A stretch of DNA of 64,000 bases from Methanoregulaceae archaeon (GCA_020850325.1 JADZEW010000008.1:186001-250000), one strand, 5' to 3'. Numbered from the stretch's first letter, positions 18,349 through 25,775 are shown. Made by a program: numbers and translations. Notes: a model not told the origin generated them from the letters alone.

Positions 18349-19059
18349 TCAGATTCCCAGAACTCGACGCTGCTCCACGATTAGCTCATCAATCCCCTTC
18401 TTCGCGATTTTCAGCATCGTGCCGAGCGTCTTCGCGTCGAACGGGCGGGCCTCGGCGGTGCCTTGAACCTCGATGAACTTGCCGCTCTCGGTCATGACCA
18501 CATTCATGTCCGTGGAAGCGGTGCTGTCTTCGTCGTAGTTCAGGTCGAGCACTTCCGTGCCGCGAACAATGCCGACCGATACCGCGGCGATCGGCTCATC
18601 CATGAGGATCTCCTTGATCATGCGCTGGCGGATCATCCACTCCATCGCATCGTGGGTCGCCACATACGCGGCGGTAATCGCAGCGCATCGGGTTCCGCCA
18701 TCGGCTTGGATCGCGTCGCAGTCCAGCGTAATCGTCCGTTCGCCCATCGACTCCAAGTTGACCGCCGTTCGCATCGCCCGGCCGATCAGCCGGCTGATCT
18801 CCATCGAGCGTCCGTTGGGCTTCGATGGGTCGCGGTTGTTGCGCTGCCGCCCGCTCCGCGCAAGCATCGTGTACTCGGCGGTCAACCAGCCGCTCCCGCT
18901 GTTCTTCATGAAGGGCGGAACTCGGTCCTCGACCGTCGCCGTTACCAGCATGTGCGTATCGCCGATCTTGATCAAACATGACCCTTCGGCGAACTTCGCC
19001 ACTCCCCGCTCAATCGTCACCGGCCTCAATGCATCGGCTTGTCGCCCATCAACTCGCAT
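18349..19059 (-). CDS. rph: Ribonuclease PH
   Basis: A 236-aa phosphorolytic 3'-5' exoribonuclease that trims tRNA 3' ends. Conserved pieces include MRVDGRQADALRPV at the N terminus, GSCLIKIGDTHML, the phosphate-site RSGRQRNNRD region, ISRLIGRAMRTAV, ITLDCDAIQADGGTRCAAI and the DLNYDEDSTASTDMNVVM active-site block. The frame is open for 98 codons upstream but that part is composition noise; the ATG at 19059 gives the family start and has a TACAAT box six bases before it. Confidence 0.96.
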   Translation of the reverse strand: MRVDGRQADALRPVTIERGVAKFAEGSCLIKIGDTHMLVTATVEDRVPPFMKNSGSGWLTAEYTMLARSGRQRNNRDPSKPNGRSMEISRLIGRAMRTAVNLESMGERTITLDCDAIQADGGTRCAAITAAYVATHDAMEWMIRQRMIKEILMDEPIAAVSVGIVRGTEVLDLNYDEDSTASTDMNVVMTESGKFIEVQGTAEARPFDAKTLGTMLKIAKKGIDELIVEQRRVLGI

Positions 19060-19065
19060 CGTAGG

Positions 19066-19071
19066 ATTGTA
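19066..19071 (-). promoter_or_regulatory. Putative -10 box (TACAAT), leaderless start of rph
   Basis: TACAAT on the minus strand ends six bases before the rph ATG and lies in the 19-base gap after the SDR gene. Confidence 0.5.
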
Positions 19072-19078
19072 CCGGCGG

Positions 19079-19756
19079 CTACAGAATGCCCTTGGGCGGC
19101 ATGATCGTGATCTCGTCGATGTTGAGCGTGGCCGGGGAGTCCACGATGTCGGAGATGCACTTGGCGACCGCGTCGGCGGAGAGCATGTCGGCTCGGTTCG
19201 GCACAAAGTCGCCACCCTCCCAAATCGGAGTATCCGTTGCCCCCGGAATGACCTGGGTGACGCGCAGACCCTGGGTTCGATACTCTGCCGCCAGCGAGCG
19301 ACCCGCGGCAAGCAGGCCCGCCTTCGCTGCGGCGTAGGCGGCAGCGCCGCCAAAGGTGTGCGTCGCGGCGATGCTGAGTACGTTGATCAACTGTCCCGAG
19401 CCACCGAGCAGCCACGGCAGGAGCGCGTGGGTCAGCCGCAGCGGAGCCGTAAGGTTGATCGCGAGTTGGTCGGCGTACTGCTCCCAAGGCATCTCGGCAG
19501 AGTCGCCAAAGTGGGCGATCCCGGCGGCGTTGATGAGGACTCTTTCCGTGGCGTCCGAACCCACCGCATCCGCCACGGCGGCGACGCTCACATCGGTAGT
19601 GAGGTCGGCGATGATGGCCGTTCCGCCGGTCTCGGCGGCGATTTGCGCCAGACGCTCCGCATTACGTCCAACCAAGATCAACTCGTGGTGAGCCAGACTC
19701 CGCGCGGCGGCGGCTCCGATGCCGCTACTTGCACCCGTGATGACGATCTGCTTCAC
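19079..19756 (-). CDS. Short-chain dehydrogenase/reductase, possibly pteridine-reducing
   Basis: A 225-aa classical SDR: the cofactor motif TGASSGIGAAAARSL at the N terminus, NAAGIAHFG, the catalytic Ser in NVLSIAA and YAAAK as YxxxK. R31 after the second strand (LVGRNAERL) suggests NADPH preference. Translation starts at a GTG that overlaps the stop of the PTPS-like gene as GTGA, so the two are made together. A PTPS followed by an NADPH-dependent SDR is the order of reactions in tetrahydrobiopterin synthesis (PTPS, then sepiapterin reductase), but general SDR sequence cannot prove that substrate. Confidence 0.88.
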   Translation of the reverse strand: MKQIVITGASSGIGAAAARSLAHHELILVGRNAERLAQIAAETGGTAIIADLTTDVSVAAVADAVGSDATERVLINAAGIAHFGDSAEMPWEQYADQLAINLTAPLRLTHALLPWLLGGSGQLINVLSIAATHTFGGAAAYAAAKAGLLAAGRSLAAEYRTQGLRVTQVIPGATDTPIWEGGDFVPNRADMLSADAVAKCISDIVDSPATLNIDEITIMPPKGIL

Positions 19757-20583
19757 GAGCGCGTGACCTCAAACGCATTGCGAGCCGTTTCCCAGAGACG
19801 CACGCGATACAACTGCGCGGGCACCTTGCCGTCAAGGCGGTCCCAAATCTCCTGGGCAACGACCTCCGAGGTCGTCACTCGTCCCGCGAACTCGGGCAGA
19901 TCGAGGTTGAGGTGCTTGTGGTCGTAGCGGTCAACAACCTCCTCGTGGACCGTCGAATCGAGGGCGCCGAGGTCGACCATCATGCCCGTCGTCGGGTCAG
20001 GCTTGCCCGCGACCGTCACTTCCAGCACATAGTTGTGGCCGTGCCCAGCGGGGTTGTTGCACTTGCCATAAAGGGCGAGGTTCTCCTCGACGGGCAGGGC
20101 ATCGGCTTGGAGCCGGTGAGCGGCGGCAAACTCATAGGTTCGGGTAAGGGTCATCATGTCGAGTTCCAAATCGAGCTCCGCCCACAGGGTGGGCATCTCT
20201 TCGAGGCGTAGGTGGGTGAGGGAAATGGGTTGTCCCGGCCACTCGGCGGCGAAGGCAGCGGTAAGCGTCTCGGCAAAGTAGTTGAGCAGGTTTTCAAGGG
20301 TCGAGCTCTGGCTCCGAAAGGCGGGAACCTCGTCGTTTATCGACCGCTGATCGAACATCTGGATCACGTCACGCTTCAGCACGTCGTCGATGCGCTTGAT
20401 GTTGACGACCATGCCGTTGACCGGATCGACCGGGCCGCTCGCCGTGACGTCGAGGATGTAGTTGTGGCCATGGTTGTAGGGGTTCGCCCACTGGCCAAAG
20501 ACCTCCCGGTTTTTCGACTCCGACCAGTCAGGAACCCAGTAGCGGTGGCCGCTGGAAAATGTGACCCGTCGGGTGAGCCTCAT
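19753..20583 (-). CDS. Two-domain PTPS/QueD-like protein (6-pyruvoyl/6-carboxy-tetrahydropterin synthase family)
   Basis: A 276-aa fusion of two PTPS domains. Domain 2 (about residues 143-276) keeps the zinc histidines (AAAHRL and GHGHNY), the catalytic Cys in YGKCNNP, the YDHKHLN Asp/His pair and a late Glu (RLWETA). Domain 1 (1-135) keeps the histidines in SSGHRY and NHGHNY but has Trp in place of the catalytic Cys (GQWANP) and lacks the His pair (FDQRSIND). So domain 1 is probably structural or regulatory. It is linked by ATGA to the permease before it and by GTGA to the SDR after it. The true reaction, biopterin or queuosine, is undecided. Confidence 0.9.
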   Translation of the reverse strand: MRLTRRVTFSSGHRYWVPDWSESKNREVFGQWANPYNHGHNYILDVTASGPVDPVNGMVVNIKRIDDVLKRDVIQMFDQRSINDEVPAFRSQSSTLENLLNYFAETLTAAFAAEWPGQPISLTHLRLEEMPTLWAELDLELDMMTLTRTYEFAAAHRLQADALPVEENLALYGKCNNPAGHGHNYVLEVTVAGKPDPTTGMMVDLGALDSTVHEEVVDRYDHKHLNLDLPEFAGRVTTSEVVAQEIWDRLDGKVPAQLYRVRLWETARNAFEVTRS

Positions 20584-21446
20584 GCGTCCCTCTGGAGTGG
20601 TTGACCCAGAGCCGCTGGGCCGCGCGTGCCCTTCGCCCCCACCACCAACACCGCCAACGCGGCCAAGTAGGGAAGGGCGAGCAACAGTTGAAACGGGATC
20701 TGTCCTCCCCCTTGGGCCTGCAACTTAAACTGCAACCACTCGAGGCCGCCCATGAGGAAACCAGCCCCAACGGCCGCGATCGGATGCCAGCGACCAAACG
20801 TCACCAGCGCAATCGCCACAAACCCGCGCCCCTGTGTCATGTTCTCCGCAAACGACCCCACGATTCCTACGGAAAGATACGCGCCCGCGGCTCCGGCCAA
20901 TGCACCGCCGATCGCCATCGCGCCCAAGCGCAGCCGCCGCACCGAGAATCCCTCGGCCTCGACTGCGGTCGGATACTCGCCCGAGGCTCGGGTTAGCAAT
21001 CCCCATCCGGTCCGGCGAAGGCTCGCCGCCGCGAGCACCGCGATGATCGGGGTCGCCAGCATGACGGCATCCAACCCGTCGAACTTCGGCAACGTCGGCA
21101 CGCTCAGCAGTTGTCCGCTCTCGCCAAAGGCCTTGCGGAACAGCGTGCCGGTTACCCCGAGCGCCAACAGGTTGATAGCCGTACCCGCGACCACCTGATC
21201 GGCCGCGCGGACCAGCACAAACCACGCCTGCAACAGACTCGCCAGTAGACCAACGACGATGCCGGCGGTGAGTCCAAGCCACGGCTGGCCGGTGGTGAGT
21301 CCGACATACGCGGCGACGAACGCCCCTCCGAGCATCGTGCCCTCAAGGCCGATGTTGAGGACCCCCGACCGCTGGCTGACGACCTCGCCCACCGCCGCGA
21401 GGGCAATGGGAATCGCGAACTGCCAAATCTGGATGACGTCGTTCAC
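20580..21446 (-). CDS. Nucleoside-type ABC transporter permease (NupQ/YufQ-like)
   Basis: A 288-aa BPD_transp_2 permease with about eight membrane segments. The family signature SGVLNIGLEGTMLGGAF occurs near the N terminus, and GRGFVAIALVTFGRWHP near residue 205 is the cytoplasmic coupling region. It forms the smaller membrane subunit with the preceding permease. Translation begins at a GTG overlapping the stop of that gene (GTGA), and its own stop overlaps the PTPS start (ATGA). Confidence 0.92.
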   Translation of the reverse strand: MNDVIQIWQFAIPIALAAVGEVVSQRSGVLNIGLEGTMLGGAFVAAYVGLTTGQPWLGLTAGIVVGLLASLLQAWFVLVRAADQVVAGTAINLLALGVTGTLFRKAFGESGQLLSVPTLPKFDGLDAVMLATPIIAVLAAASLRRTGWGLLTRASGEYPTAVEAEGFSVRRLRLGAMAIGGALAGAAGAYLSVGIVGSFAENMTQGRGFVAIALVTFGRWHPIAAVGAGFLMGGLEWLQFKLQAQGGGQIPFQLLLALPYLAALAVLVVGAKGTRGPAALGQPLQRDA

Positions 21447-22456
21447 GCGGCCGCCTCCTTGATCTTTGCGGGTTTGGCCCGCGGGGCAAGGGCGACCACC
21501 GCCAGCACCGCCGCTGCCTGAATCACGTAGATGAGCGTCGTGCCGCCGGTCGAAAACCGGGCGAGATTCTCCGAACCGGCGAACAGCGCTCCGAAGTAGA
21601 GTCCGCTAAGTAGGACGCCCAAGGGGTGAAGTCCGCCCAGCAAGGCGACGGGAATCGCGAGGAAGCCCCAGCCCTGCGGGAATCCGGTGCCGAGGGTGCC
21701 GGTGATTCCCGTGTATTCGACGCCTCCGGCAAGGCCACACAGCGCGCCCGAGAGCATCATTGAACCGATCGCAACTCGCTCACTGGGAATCCGATTAGCT
21801 CGCGCTGCCGTCGGCGATGCCCCTACCAGCCGCAGCCGGAAGCCCGACCGCGTGCCGTAAAGAAAAGCGGTCACGAGCAACACCGCGACGACGGCGATCA
21901 CGAGGCCGAAGTGCAGGTCCAACTGCCGATCGAACTTCAGCAGCATCGTATCGGCGGGGAGCGGAACAGTCTGCGGGAGCCCGCCATCAGAGCGGCGCAA
22001 CGGGCCTTGGACGGTCCACGCCAATAGCTGAATCGCGACGAAGTTGAGCAAGATCGTCGAGATCACTGCCGGGACGCCCCGCGCCACTTGGAGCCACCCC
22101 GCGAATCCCGACCACATCGCGCCTGCCGCCATCGCCGCAGCCAAGATCAGCGGATTCAGCACCGGCCCCACGACCTTGCCCATAAGCGCGGCGGCCACCG
22201 CTGCTCCCCCGATGGCGCCAACGATCAGTTGGCCCTCGCCGCCGATGTTGTACATCCCGGCCCGCCAAGCGATGACCATGCCCAGGCCGGTCAACAGCAG
22301 CGGGGTCGCCTTGGCGAGCGTGCGCGAGATGCCGAACTTGTCGCCAAATGCTCCTTCGCCCAGCAGCCGCAAAGAGTCTGCGACCGGTAGCCCGAAGACG
22401 AGGAGCGTGAGCACCAACGCCAGCCCAAGCGCCGCAACGGTTGCCAGCAACCTCAC
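21443..22456 (-). CDS. Nucleoside-type ABC transporter permease (NupP/YufP-like)
   Basis: A 337-aa permease with about nine membrane segments, carrying MYNIGGEGQLIVGAIGGA and GITGTLGTGFPQGWGFLAIPVALLGG-like segments typical of the larger BmpA-system permease. The GTG at 22456 overlaps the ATPase stop (GTGA) and has a GGGAGG Shine-Dalgarno eight to ten bases upstream. A longer frame to 22783 exists but is antiparallel-type noise inside the ATPase gene and is rejected. Confidence 0.93.
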   Translation of the reverse strand: MRLLATVAALGLALVLTLLVFGLPVADSLRLLGEGAFGDKFGISRTLAKATPLLLTGLGMVIAWRAGMYNIGGEGQLIVGAIGGAAVAAALMGKVVGPVLNPLILAAAMAAGAMWSGFAGWLQVARGVPAVISTILLNFVAIQLLAWTVQGPLRRSDGGLPQTVPLPADTMLLKFDRQLDLHFGLVIAVVAVLLVTAFLYGTRSGFRLRLVGASPTAARANRIPSERVAIGSMMLSGALCGLAGGVEYTGITGTLGTGFPQGWGFLAIPVALLGGLHPLGVLLSGLYFGALFAGSENLARFSTGGTTLIYVIQAAAVLAVVALAPRAKPAKIKEAAA

Positions 22457-23889
22457 GCGTCGCCTCCCACCAGGTGATCCGTCAGTTGGCCGCGCGAAAG
22501 AAACACGGTTCGATGCGCGAGCGCCGCGAGTTCGTCCCGGTCGGTTGAGAACAATGCGACGACCGCTCCCGCATCCGCGGCAGCCACGATTTGTGAGTGG
22601 ACGTAGTCGGTCGCACGCACATCGAGCCCCCGCGTCGGGTTGACTGCGATCAGCAAATCGGGAATCTGATCGAGCGAGCGGGCGACGACGACCTTTTGCT
22701 GGTTGCCGCCGCTTAGGCTGGAAACCGGGTCGCGCACCGAGCCGACCTTGATCTGGAATCGGTCGACCAGGTCTCCGGTCCACCGCTCGATCGCTCTACG
22801 GCGAAGGAACGGGCCCCTGGTCAGCTCTCGGCGTCGATGGCCCGTGATGAGCAGATTGTCGCGGATGCTCATGCTCAAGGCGAGCCCGTCGCTTTGCCGA
22901 TCCTGAGGGATGTAAGCGAGGTTTGCTTCTTCGAGATCACATCCGGTCAGATAAATCGACCCCGCCGCCGTTGGGCGAACCCTCGCCAGCGCTTCGGCGA
23001 GTTCGACCTGGCCGTTGCCATCCACCCCGCCAATGCCGAGGATCTCCCCCTTGCCGATGGCAAACGAGACTCCGCGGACCGCGTGCTCGCCGCGACTTCC
23101 GCGCACGTGGAGATCGGTGACTCGGAGGCCAGGCTCGAACGACGCGGAAACCGGAGTTCGCGTACCTGGAACTTCGCCGACCATCCACGTCGCGAGCTGA
23201 TCGGCATCCACATCCGTGATCGGCGCGGTAGCCACAAACGCGCCGCGCCGCAGAACCGTCACCCGGTCGGCGATCGCCATGACTTCACTGAGCTTGTGGG
23301 CGATGAGGATGATGGTCCTCCCTCGATCCTTGAGCTCGCGGATGACGCGGAACAAGTCCTCGACCTCGTCGGGCGTGAGGACCGCTGTAGGTTCATCGAA
23401 GATGACGACCTCGGCATCACTGCTGAGCGCCTTGAGAATCTCCAGCCGTTGTTGAACGCCGACGGGAAGGTCCTGGGTAAGTCGGTCGGGCTCGACCTTC
23501 CAGCCCAGTTGCTCGGCCAAGGCGAGCGAATGACCGGCATCTCGGACGGGCCGATGTGTCTGCCAGGGGGAACGCAAGTTCGCAAGCGAGAGATTCTCGG
23601 CGGCGGAGAACGCCGGGACCAAAGCGAAGTGCTGATGCACCATCGCGATGCCTCGCCGACGCGCCTCGAACGGGCGTCCGAAGGGAAGAGGCAGGTCCCG
23701 AAGCGTTCCTTCACCCGAATCCGGGGCGACAAATCCCGCGATGATGTTCATCAGCGTGGACTTGCCAGCTCCATTCTCACCGAGAACGGCATGCACCTCG
23801 TTCGGGGCAAAGTCGATCGACACCCGATCCAGCGCTACGGTGGGGCCGTACGCCTTTGAAACCTCGCGCAACCTGAGGATCGGGGTCAA
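22453..23889 (-). CDS. Nucleoside-type ABC transporter ATPase, duplicated ATP-binding domains (NupO/YufO-like)
   Basis: A 478-aa double ATPase. Domain 1 has Walker A GENGAGKST, a signature-like LPVGVQQRLEI and Walker B VVIFDEPTAVLTP. Domain 2 has a degenerate Walker A (GVDGNGQVEL), an intact LSGGNQQK signature and NPTRGLDV in place of a full Walker B with Glu. This asymmetry is the family rule for RbsA/YufO-type importers. It follows the lipoprotein gene by seven bases and is coupled to the permeases. It energises import of nucleoside-like solutes. Confidence 0.94.
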   Translation of the reverse strand: MTPILRLREVSKAYGPTVALDRVSIDFAPNEVHAVLGENGAGKSTLMNIIAGFVAPDSGEGTLRDLPLPFGRPFEARRRGIAMVHQHFALVPAFSAAENLSLANLRSPWQTHRPVRDAGHSLALAEQLGWKVEPDRLTQDLPVGVQQRLEILKALSSDAEVVIFDEPTAVLTPDEVEDLFRVIRELKDRGRTIILIAHKLSEVMAIADRVTVLRRGAFVATAPITDVDADQLATWMVGEVPGTRTPVSASFEPGLRVTDLHVRGSRGEHAVRGVSFAIGKGEILGIGGVDGNGQVELAEALARVRPTAAGSIYLTGCDLEEANLAYIPQDRQSDGLALSMSIRDNLLITGHRRRELTRGPFLRRRAIERWTGDLVDRFQIKVGSVRDPVSSLSGGNQQKVVVARSLDQIPDLLIAVNPTRGLDVRATDYVHSQIVAAADAGAVVALFSTDRDELAALAHRTVFLSRGQLTDHLVGGDA

Positions 23890-23896
23890 CGTCGTC

Positions 23897-24907
23897 TCAG
23901 AACTCGTCTTTGGCGACGGTCAGTTCGCCGGAGAGAATCTTCGCGCGGGTTTCTTCCACTGCGGTCACGACTTCGGGGGACAACTTGTCTTGCAAAGCCG
24001 GATTGACCACGAAGTCGATCGCGCCCTGATCCATGCCCATCAGCGCGATACCGCCCTTGAAGGTTCCGTCCTTCACACTCTTCGCGAGGTTCAGGAAAGC
24101 CGGACCCGCGACGATGGTGGCTGATGCCACGACGACTCCACTCGGGTTGTCATTCTGATTCAGATTCGCGCCGAACGCCCAAACTCCGCGCTCCTTGCAG
24201 GCATCGAAGACGCCCTGGGCGGCGGCGTTGGCCTGGTGGATGACGAAGTCAGCTCCTTCGGAGATCGCGCCGAGGGTGGCTTGCTTCGCCTTGGCGATGT
24301 CTTGGCCGCTGCCGGTAAAGACTTCAATCACCGTGATGCCCGGCTTGGCGGCTTCGGCTCCTGCCTTGAACGCCTTGAACGTCGAGCGGATGCTGGGCAC
24401 GTCGTCGCCGCCAATCGTCGCGACCTTGCCTGACTTCGAGGAAAGTCCTGCCATGTAGCCGGCAAGGTAGAAGCCCTGCTCGAGGTAGAAACGGAACGCG
24501 CCGACGTTGTCCGCGGTTTGGCCACCGGAACTGCTCACGAAGATGGTGTTGGGGAAGTCCTTGGCGACCTCGATCGCGGGCTCGTTGTACTCAAACCCGT
24601 GGCCGAACACCAGCCGGTAGCCCTTCTGAGCGTAGCTCCTCATGGCGTCCTTGATCTGGGTGTCCTTGGCTTCTTGGTTGTTGATTTCGGCCCCCATGTC
24701 GCGCTCGATCGCCTTGAGGCCGTCGTAGGCCATCGCGGACCAGCCGGCATCACTCACCGGACCAGGGGTCAGCAGGGCAACTTTGAAATCAGCGGTTTGC
24801 CCCGTTGTCGGGGTTTCGGTGGTCGAAGTGGGCTCCTTGGCTCCGCCGGTGCAACCGGCAAGGATCAGGGCGGCCATCGCCGTGCCGATCAATGTGAAGG
24901 CTCTCAT
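23897..24907 (-). CDS. BmpA/PnrA-type substrate-binding lipoprotein
   Basis: A 336-aa lipoprotein: signal peptide with lipobox LAGC (Cys at residue 19), a Thr-rich linker and a BMP domain. Family landmarks include ALLTPGPVSDAGWSAMAYDGL, LVFGHGFEYNEPA, FVSSSGG, AGYMAGLSSKSGKVATIGG and GADFVIHQANAAAQGVFDA. Characterised members bind purine nucleosides (PnrA, BmpA), so purine nucleoside or a related pterin/deazapurine is the expected ligand here. A TAGACT box six bases before the ATG marks the operon promoter. Downstream follow the ATPase, two permeases, the PTPS-like fusion and the SDR. Confidence 0.93.
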   Translation of the reverse strand: MRAFTLIGTAMAALILAGCTGGAKEPTSTTETPTTGQTADFKVALLTPGPVSDAGWSAMAYDGLKAIERDMGAEINNQEAKDTQIKDAMRSYAQKGYRLVFGHGFEYNEPAIEVAKDFPNTIFVSSSGGQTADNVGAFRFYLEQGFYLAGYMAGLSSKSGKVATIGGDDVPSIRSTFKAFKAGAEAAKPGITVIEVFTGSGQDIAKAKQATLGAISEGADFVIHQANAAAQGVFDACKERGVWAFGANLNQNDNPSGVVVASATIVAGPAFLNLAKSVKDGTFKGGIALMGMDQGAIDFVVNPALQDKLSPEVVTAVEETRAKILSGELTVAKDEF

Positions 24908-24913
24908 GCCCGT

Positions 24914-24919
24914 AGTCTA
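24914..24919 (-). promoter_or_regulatory. Putative -10 box (TAGACT), leaderless start of the bmpA-like operon
   Basis: TAGACT on the minus strand ends six bases before the ATG at 24907. It is divergent from and close to a similar box for the gene at 24963, so a shared regulator could act in the 31 bases between them. No riboswitch fits in this short spacer. Confidence 0.5.
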
Positions 24920-24950
24920 CGCGCTCCGACGCCCCAAAGTTGGGACTTGG

Positions 24951-24956
24951 TAACAT
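24951..24956 (+). promoter_or_regulatory. Putative -10 box (TAACAT), leaderless start of the beta-barrel-like protein
   Basis: TAACAT ends six bases before the ATG at 24963, with no Shine-Dalgarno. Confidence 0.45.
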
Positions 24957-24962
24957 CGCACG

Positions 24963-25775
24963 ATGCGTTGGATGTCGGTTGCGCTCGTTGTTGCGGGCTT
25001 GGTGACTCTGGGATCGGCCCAGAAGGAGCTTTCGGGGCGGCGACAGTACCCGCAGTTCCGGAGCATGAGTGGACTCTCGGGCTCGGCATTTCCGGTCGGA
25101 AGCGACGGGTTGCCCAGCTACAACGGCGCCATGGCTTTGTCGACGCCGATTGCCTACTCGATGACCGGTTGGTCCTTTGTGGCCGGTATCGGCAGCCTCA
25201 GCTTTGACACCAACCTCCGTTGGCCCAGCGGCCGCGAGGGGCAGCGGAGCAACAACGGAACCGCCCAGTTCATGGTTGGTATCCCCCTGGGCAGCGCCGG
25301 CGACCTCACCGCTTCATTTATGGTCCTCAGCACGATTCTCGATAGCGCTCTGAACCTCCAGTGGACGCCGGGAAGGCAGGAAGGGAAGTTTCGCTACTCG
25401 GTCGGGGTTCAAGACCTCGGCGGCGGCGGCGGATCAGCCGGCGAAAAGCTGGCTTCGGACGGCGAATCGAGCCGGAGTTTCTTCGGCGTCGCAACCTATG
25501 CGGTCGACGAGCGCACCCACGTTTCGTTGAGCACTGGCACGAACCGCTTCCGCAACCTGCAGGGCAACGTATCAACGACCGTCGCGCCGAACCTGAAGGC
25601 GACGCTCGAGTACGATGCGTACAACTGGAACTTCGGCGTCGCCTACCGTCTGGGTGCCCTGAAGCGGATCAGCGATGAAACCTACGACAAGCCCGCGCGA
25701 ACCGCGGACGCGCATGCGTTCATCGGTCTGGTTCGGGGCAAGCTCCTCTTCTGGGGCCTAAACATCTCGTTTTGA
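24963..25775 (+). CDS. Secreted protein, probably an outer-membrane beta-barrel
   Basis: A 270-aa protein with a signal peptide (RWMSVALVVAGLVTLGSA). The mature part is Gly, Ser and aromatic rich with alternating beta-strand patterns (WSFVAGIGSLSFDTNL, KFRYSVGVQDLGG, YNWNFGVAYRLG) and ends in LLFWGLNISF with a C-terminal Phe, the usual recognition residue for outer-membrane barrel assembly. No family was recognised. The stop overlaps the convergent DUF423 gene by 18 bases. Its presence supports a diderm envelope. It diverges from the nucleoside transporter operon, so a role in passage of the same solute is possible but not shown. Confidence 0.72.
   Translation: MRWMSVALVVAGLVTLGSAQKELSGRRQYPQFRSMSGLSGSAFPVGSDGLPSYNGAMALSTPIAYSMTGWSFVAGIGSLSFDTNLRWPSGREGQRSNNGTAQFMVGIPLGSAGDLTASFMVLSTILDSALNLQWTPGRQEGKFRYSVGVQDLGGGGGSAGEKLASDGESSRSFFGVATYAVDERTHVSLSTGTNRFRNLQGNVSTTVAPNLKATLEYDAYNWNFGVAYRLGALKRISDETYDKPARTADAHAFIGLVRGKLLFWGLNISF

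Follow-up and report, generated by a model that had tools for sequence, protein, structure and literature searches.

Organization of the locus

Our analysis concerns a six-gene operon in a 64,000-nucleotide stretch of DNA (hereafter the window; GCA_020850325.1, JADZEW010000008.1:186001-250000, listed as Methanoregulaceae archaeon), in which a BMP-type ATP-binding cassette (ABC) importer is joined to two putative enzymes of pterin metabolism. The window genome, 3.5 Mb in size, is taken to belong to the family Fimbriimonadaceae, phylum Armatimonadota. All six genes lie on the minus strand and run from position 24907 to 19079. The first codes for a BMP-type (PF02608) substrate-binding lipoprotein (23897..24907; Pfam Bmp, E 2.9e-49) and is preceded on the same strand by a -10-like box, TAGACT (24914..24919), that ends 6 nt 5' of the BMP ATG, a spacing suggestive of a leaderless transcript. 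It is followed by an ABC ATPase of the RbsA/BMP-system type with two nucleotide-binding domains (22453..23889; two ABC_tran matches), whose TTG start lies 7 nt past the BMP stop, and by two BPD_transp_2 permeases, A (21443..22456) and B (20580..21446). The row continues with a tandem (dual-domain) 6-pyruvoyltetrahydropterin synthase (PTPS) of the PTPS-II type (19753..20583; 276 aa, two PF01242 domains) and ends with a short-chain dehydrogenase (SDR; 19079..19756; Pfam adh_short), for which we propose the sepiapterin-reductase step. Four-base GTGA or ATGA overlaps join ATPase to permease A, permease A to permease B (GTGA), permease B to PTPS and PTPS to SDR. The GTG start of permease A, within its GTGA overlap with the ATPase stop, was set at 22456, correcting a long mechanically called reading frame that began at 22783. 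This layout of overlapping genes behind a BMP lipoprotein with a -10 box had been described in the original prediction, and coordinates, Pfam matches and sequence all confirm it.

Pfam and fold matches show that the BMP importer set is complete, with its lipoprotein, two-domain ATPase and two permeases. NCBIfam models for sugar- or BMP-type ATPases match the ATPase, all below their cut-off. Names from the NCBIfam B6-transporter models were rejected for the importer because their scores fall far under the cut-off. The RNase PH gene, next after the SDR, has a -10-like box of its own (TACAAT), likewise 6 nt before its ATG, so that the operon plausibly ends at the SDR.

A probable tetrahydrobiopterin-type enzyme pair

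Judged from their sequences, the operon enzymes very probably belong to the tetrahydrobiopterin (BH4) branch of pterin metabolism. Two signatures separate the relevant PTPS relatives: PTPS-II, the biopterin type, has CxxxxxHGH, and QueD has CxxxHGH (PMC5041015). Domain 2 of the tandem protein (19756..20163, minus strand) carries the PTPS-II signature as CNNPAGHGH, and alignments find in it the full set of catalytic Cys, Asp, His and Glu residues and the three zinc histidines (C175, H156, H181, H183, D221, H222 and E265). We take the roles of these residues to be those of their counterparts in rat PTPS. Domain 1 (20170..20583, minus strand) keeps H13, H38, H40 and E129 and lacks the signature cysteine; it has W32 in place of the catalytic Cys and D78-Q79 in place of the Asp-His pair, and since Trp replaces Cys and Gln replaces His it is probably non-catalytic. 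The best PDB matches of the tandem protein are the rat and human PTPS (E ~1e-32, versus 1e-9 for QueD), and its structure model (pLDDT, the model's confidence score, 96) agrees with this match to the mammalian type. As a separate observation, different residues have replaced the domain 1 catalytic Cys in different phyla (Trp in Armatimonadota, Ala in Poribacteria and Tyr in some Chloroflexota), with the HGH zinc motif mostly kept.

The SDR has the invariant residues S128, Y141 and K145 of the Ser-Tyr-Lys set together with the glycine motif (G8, G12 and G14). In a comparison of its family profile, sepiapterin reductase 2bd0 came third with 173.9 bits, effectively tied with two other SDRs at 174.6 and 174.1.

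The genomic surroundings point in the same direction. FolE2, phenylalanine hydroxylase (PAH) and pterin-4a-carbinolamine dehydratase are all present in the window genome, outside the operon. The original prediction had named folE, queC and a stand-alone queD as genes worth seeking there: FolE2, QueC and a QueD-type gene were found, and FolE1 had no match in this genome. Across 121 genomes, in which pathway genes were sought one family at a time, tandem PTPS and PAH occur together in 85, neither in 19, PTPS only in 12 and PAH only in five (Fisher p 5e-10, kinship uncorrected). In the reduced 1.5 Mb genomes G029 and G047, PTPS, PAH, FolE1, FolE2 and the operon BMP are all absent together, and in the relative G074 the PAH gene adjoins PTPS and FolE1.

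A wider scan of 84,980 species genomes found at least 80 tandem-PTPS loci, in Armatimonadota, Chloroflexota, Poribacteria, Bacillales, Acidobacteria, Cyanobacteria and others. Among the 80 matches listed, PTPS is adjoined by FolE1 in 42, FolE2 in three and an SDR in 31, with FolE1 and SDR both present in 27; such FolE1/tandem PTPS/SDR clusters occur in Bacillales, Chloroflexota, Poribacteria and others. In relatives and in other phyla, PTPS is thus linked both to GTP cyclohydrolase I and to an SDR; in the window the SDR alone is linked. The idea that the unit serves a biopterin-type pterin, one of the options in the original prediction, is upheld by the PTPS-II motif, the mammalian PTPS match, the FolE/PTPS/SDR clusters found elsewhere, the genome's own PAH, dehydratase and FolE2, and the conserved gene order described below.

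The other option, a QueD-like enzyme serving queuosine or another deazapurine, now seems highly improbable. It would agree with the score of 107 that the QueD model TIGR03367 gives the tandem PTPS (cut-off 89.25) and with the presence of QueC in the window genome. This match above cut-off looks like the known over-annotation of the PTPS family as QueD, and the motif and PDB matches given above are those of a PTPS-II and not of QueD. The window genome also has a separate stand-alone CxxxHGH protein of QueD type alongside its QueC. In roughly ten relatives the tandem PTPS is present and QueC gives no match above cut-off (G073, G077, which is in one contig, G079, G083, G089, G091, G092, G094, G095 and G112); QueC is present in the members G081, G085 and G087 of family f2. 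The motif, the separate QueD and QueC and the relatives that do without QueC largely refute a deazapurine product.

Conservation of the importer-PTPS linkage

Of the 121 genomes, 97 gave a strong tandem-PTPS match, and 67 of these belong to the window's own family. The operon BMP query matched in 75 genomes, and the tandem PTPS is present in 70 of them. In 51 of the 70 (counts that kinship makes non-independent, as are all linkage counts given here) the BMP gene is co-directional with the PTPS gene and lies 3.19-3.78 kb upstream, a distance that leaves space for the other three ABC genes. The remaining genomes of the 70 are accounted for partly by contig breaks and partly by real displacements. 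The tandem PTPS has one or more transporter genes next to it in 29 of the 40 loci extracted, and since the transporter is kept while flanking genes vary, the adjacency appears to be more than chance. The original prediction would have fallen had the order not been conserved in relatives; the order is conserved. The linkage extends to family f5 and to further Armatimonadota families (L063, L064, L149, L151 and L172). In the relative G080 (L060), BMP, ATPase, permease A, permease B, PTPS, FolE1 and SDR form one run, the last three with 4-base overlaps, and in G107, a genome lacking tandem PTPS, it is FolE1 that accompanies the importer. Among the 80 matches listed in the wider scan, BMP or permease genes adjoin PTPS in ten, all titled Armatimonadota or its groups; coupling of the tandem PTPS to an importer is therefore confined to Armatimonadota among these matches.

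Concerning the G107 locus itself (L116; G107:C12, 4857-11182), the ABC set directly abuts GTP cyclohydrolase I, a MurQ-like gene comes next, and QueC is about 5 kb off. Another relative, G010 (nine contigs), has tandem PTPS, PAH, QueC and the importer, yet no FolE or FolE2 match, which may reflect an assembly gap, another cyclohydrolase or dependence on import; it was not used as evidence.

The binding protein and its pocket

The model of the operon BMP (pLDDT 87) has the BMP fold. Its pocket residues were assigned from alignments of about 25% sequence identity, and the positions that form the nucleoside pocket are occupied by replacements: P48, W56, S172, T176, G201, Q225, N248 and I265. BmpA contacts its nucleoside through Phe27, Phe176, Asp225 and Lys242 (PMC13325309), whose equivalents here are W56, G201, N248 and I265, so that none of the four is kept. 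Among 15 aligned operon BMP orthologs, Asn occupies the 225 position in all 15 and Ile the 242 position in 14. Phe27, Asp225 and Lys242 are all retained in the second BMP of the window genome (G000:C13) and in four other BMPs from relatives; at the Phe176 position these have Trp. The nucleoside import that the original prediction attributed to this system is therefore disfavoured: the operon BMP lacks contact residues that the second BMP of the same genome largely retains.

AtzT, in turn, contacts guanine through Tyr45, Ser97, Glu165, Trp194, Asn218 and Asn220 (PMC6834077). Of the AtzT side-chain contacts, only Asn220 is kept in the operon BMP (N227); Tyr45 is replaced by Trp, and Ser97, Glu165, Asn169, Trp194 and Asn218 differ. 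Because the BmpA and AtzT contacts are mostly replaced, the operon BMP probably does not bind a nucleoside or guanine in the manner already described for these ligands. Outside the family, BMP orthologs (L116, L151 and L064) differ at several pocket positions and the ligand may vary there. No riboswitch, sought as a clue to the ligand, reached Rfam gathering scores in the window or in nine related loci.

Proposed role of the operon

From the enzyme families, the conservation of the operon and the loss of nucleoside contacts, all tested on sequence, we infer both the catalytic steps and the importer ligand of the following scheme. FolE2, encoded elsewhere in the genome, would convert GTP to 7,8-dihydroneopterin triphosphate, which PTPS domain 2 would turn into 6-pyruvoyltetrahydropterin, domain 1 probably being a structural, pterin-holding half. 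The SDR would then reduce the side chain, as in the sepiapterin-reductase step, to yield a BH4-type product that would serve phenylalanine hydroxylase and be recycled by pterin-4a-carbinolamine dehydratase. The BMP-type importer would most likely take up a biopterin-, sepiapterin- or neopterin-like pterin, supplementing the cell's own synthesis with pterin from outside. That the ligand is a pterin is suggested by gene linkage, the importer being found alongside PTPS or, in G107, FolE1, and we regard it as a serious possibility that falls somewhat short of an even chance. A BH4-supplying operon with a pterin-importing BMP system is, as a whole, a slightly more tentative proposal. We hold with the same reserve the idea that uptake of unconjugated pterins is the dedicated task of this BMP-type ABC system, which would have arisen in Armatimonadota from the nucleoside-importer family and been built into the BH4 operon, letting cells combine synthesis with salvage of the cofactor.

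Several observations tell against this proposal. The SDR profile is equally near clavaldehyde dehydrogenase, so that the naming of the SDR depends on its gene context; likewise, what supports a pterin as ligand is gene linkage, and the nearest BMP relatives of defined ligand bind guanine (AtzT) or nucleosides, none of them a pterin. Most of family f2, together with G011, have tandem PTPS, FolE2 and PAH with no importer, which makes the importer dispensable. Finally, G009, G037, G104, G111 and G116 have no PAH match despite an operon-type BMP and a tandem PTPS, and another pterin user may exist there.

With the same BH4 enzymes, the importer's cargo might instead be a purine base or nucleoside (guanine, guanosine or xanthine) that feeds the GTP pool for pterin synthesis. 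AtzT, which binds guanine and 2-hydroxyatrazine, is the closest solved BMP relative in a single-sequence search, its Asn220 contact persists as N227, structural matches of the BMP include guanosine- and adenosine-binding proteins, and the importer of G107 adjoins a GTP cyclohydrolase I gene. We nevertheless consider a purine ligand distinctly unlikely, given that neither the AtzT contacts Ser97, Glu165 and Trp194 nor the residues that touch the nucleoside (Asp19, Phe176, Asp225 and Lys242) are present in the operon BMP, most nucleoside residues being retained by the other BMP of the genome. Moreover, PurC, a marker of de novo purine synthesis, is present in 21 of 21 genomes tested, and GTP is a general pool, so that a linkage to PTPS alone would be odd. 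An unrelated nutrient, such as a flavin, a vitamin B6-like compound or another small ring, co-located with the BH4 genes through regulation or history, is also unlikely, if a little less so. BMP-family ligands are varied, the riboflavin-binding RfuA is among the structural matches, and the same enzymes occur in other phyla with no adjoining importer among the matches listed. Against this stand the persistence of the importer linkage in the window's family, f5 and several other families while the flanks change, and the scores of the NCBIfam B6-transporter models, which lie far below cut-off.

The BMP system of this operon offers a specific candidate for pterin import in bacteria; a literature search of partial coverage turned up no ABC importer of biopterin-type pterins in bacteria. 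The search likewise found no report of a complete BH4 branch in Armatimonadota, where the present analysis would place one with phenylalanine hydroxylase as its likely user. The automatic model TIGR03367 would name the tandem PTPS-II of this operon QueD, a known annotation trap of the family.

Comparison with known systems

The two-domain PTPS itself is of an already described kind: Kong et al. 2006 (PMID 16920111), cited in PMC5041015 and PMC3546692, name in their title a dual-domain PTPS as the bacterial enzyme responsible for making BH4, and Synechococcus PTPS-II has PTPS activity in vitro (PMC5041015). Tandem PTPS members were found in many cyanobacteria among the matches listed. The cyanobacterial dual-domain bPTPS-II resembles the window protein in having two PTPS domains per chain and the PTPS-II motif in domain 2, but most keep the domain 1 Cys, whereas the window protein has W32 and Q79 in domain 1 and its gene sits with an importer and an SDR. 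The operon shares its enzyme families with the three-gene BH4 cluster of FolE, PTPS and sepiapterin-reductase-like SDR, whose 4-base overlaps are seen in L060; it differs in having no FolE1, with FolE2 encoded elsewhere and the ABC importer occupying the upstream place.

On the transport side, the PnrA/BmpA/BmpD nucleoside importers have the same BMP lipoprotein, double ATPase and two permeases and share the fold of the window BMP, at Z of about 29-31, but compared with BmpA the window BMP shows the replacements F176 to G, D225 to N, K242 to I and D19 to P. AtzT is its best single-sequence PDB match (5.6e-33) and has an equivalent of Asn220 in it; the equivalents of its Ser97, Glu165, Asn169, Trp194 and Asn218 differ.

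Neighbouring genes and promoters

Three genes, the BMP gene, the RNase PH gene and a divergent gene at 24963, each have a TANNNT box ending 6 nt ahead of their ATG (regions 24907-24963 and 19059-19071). This spacing is of the leaderless-transcript type and is absent from the other starts in this stretch. The divergent gene (24963-25775, plus strand) codes for a 270-aa protein with no Pfam or NCBIfam match. It is kept in a sister genome and has a 55-base promoter region in common with the operon.

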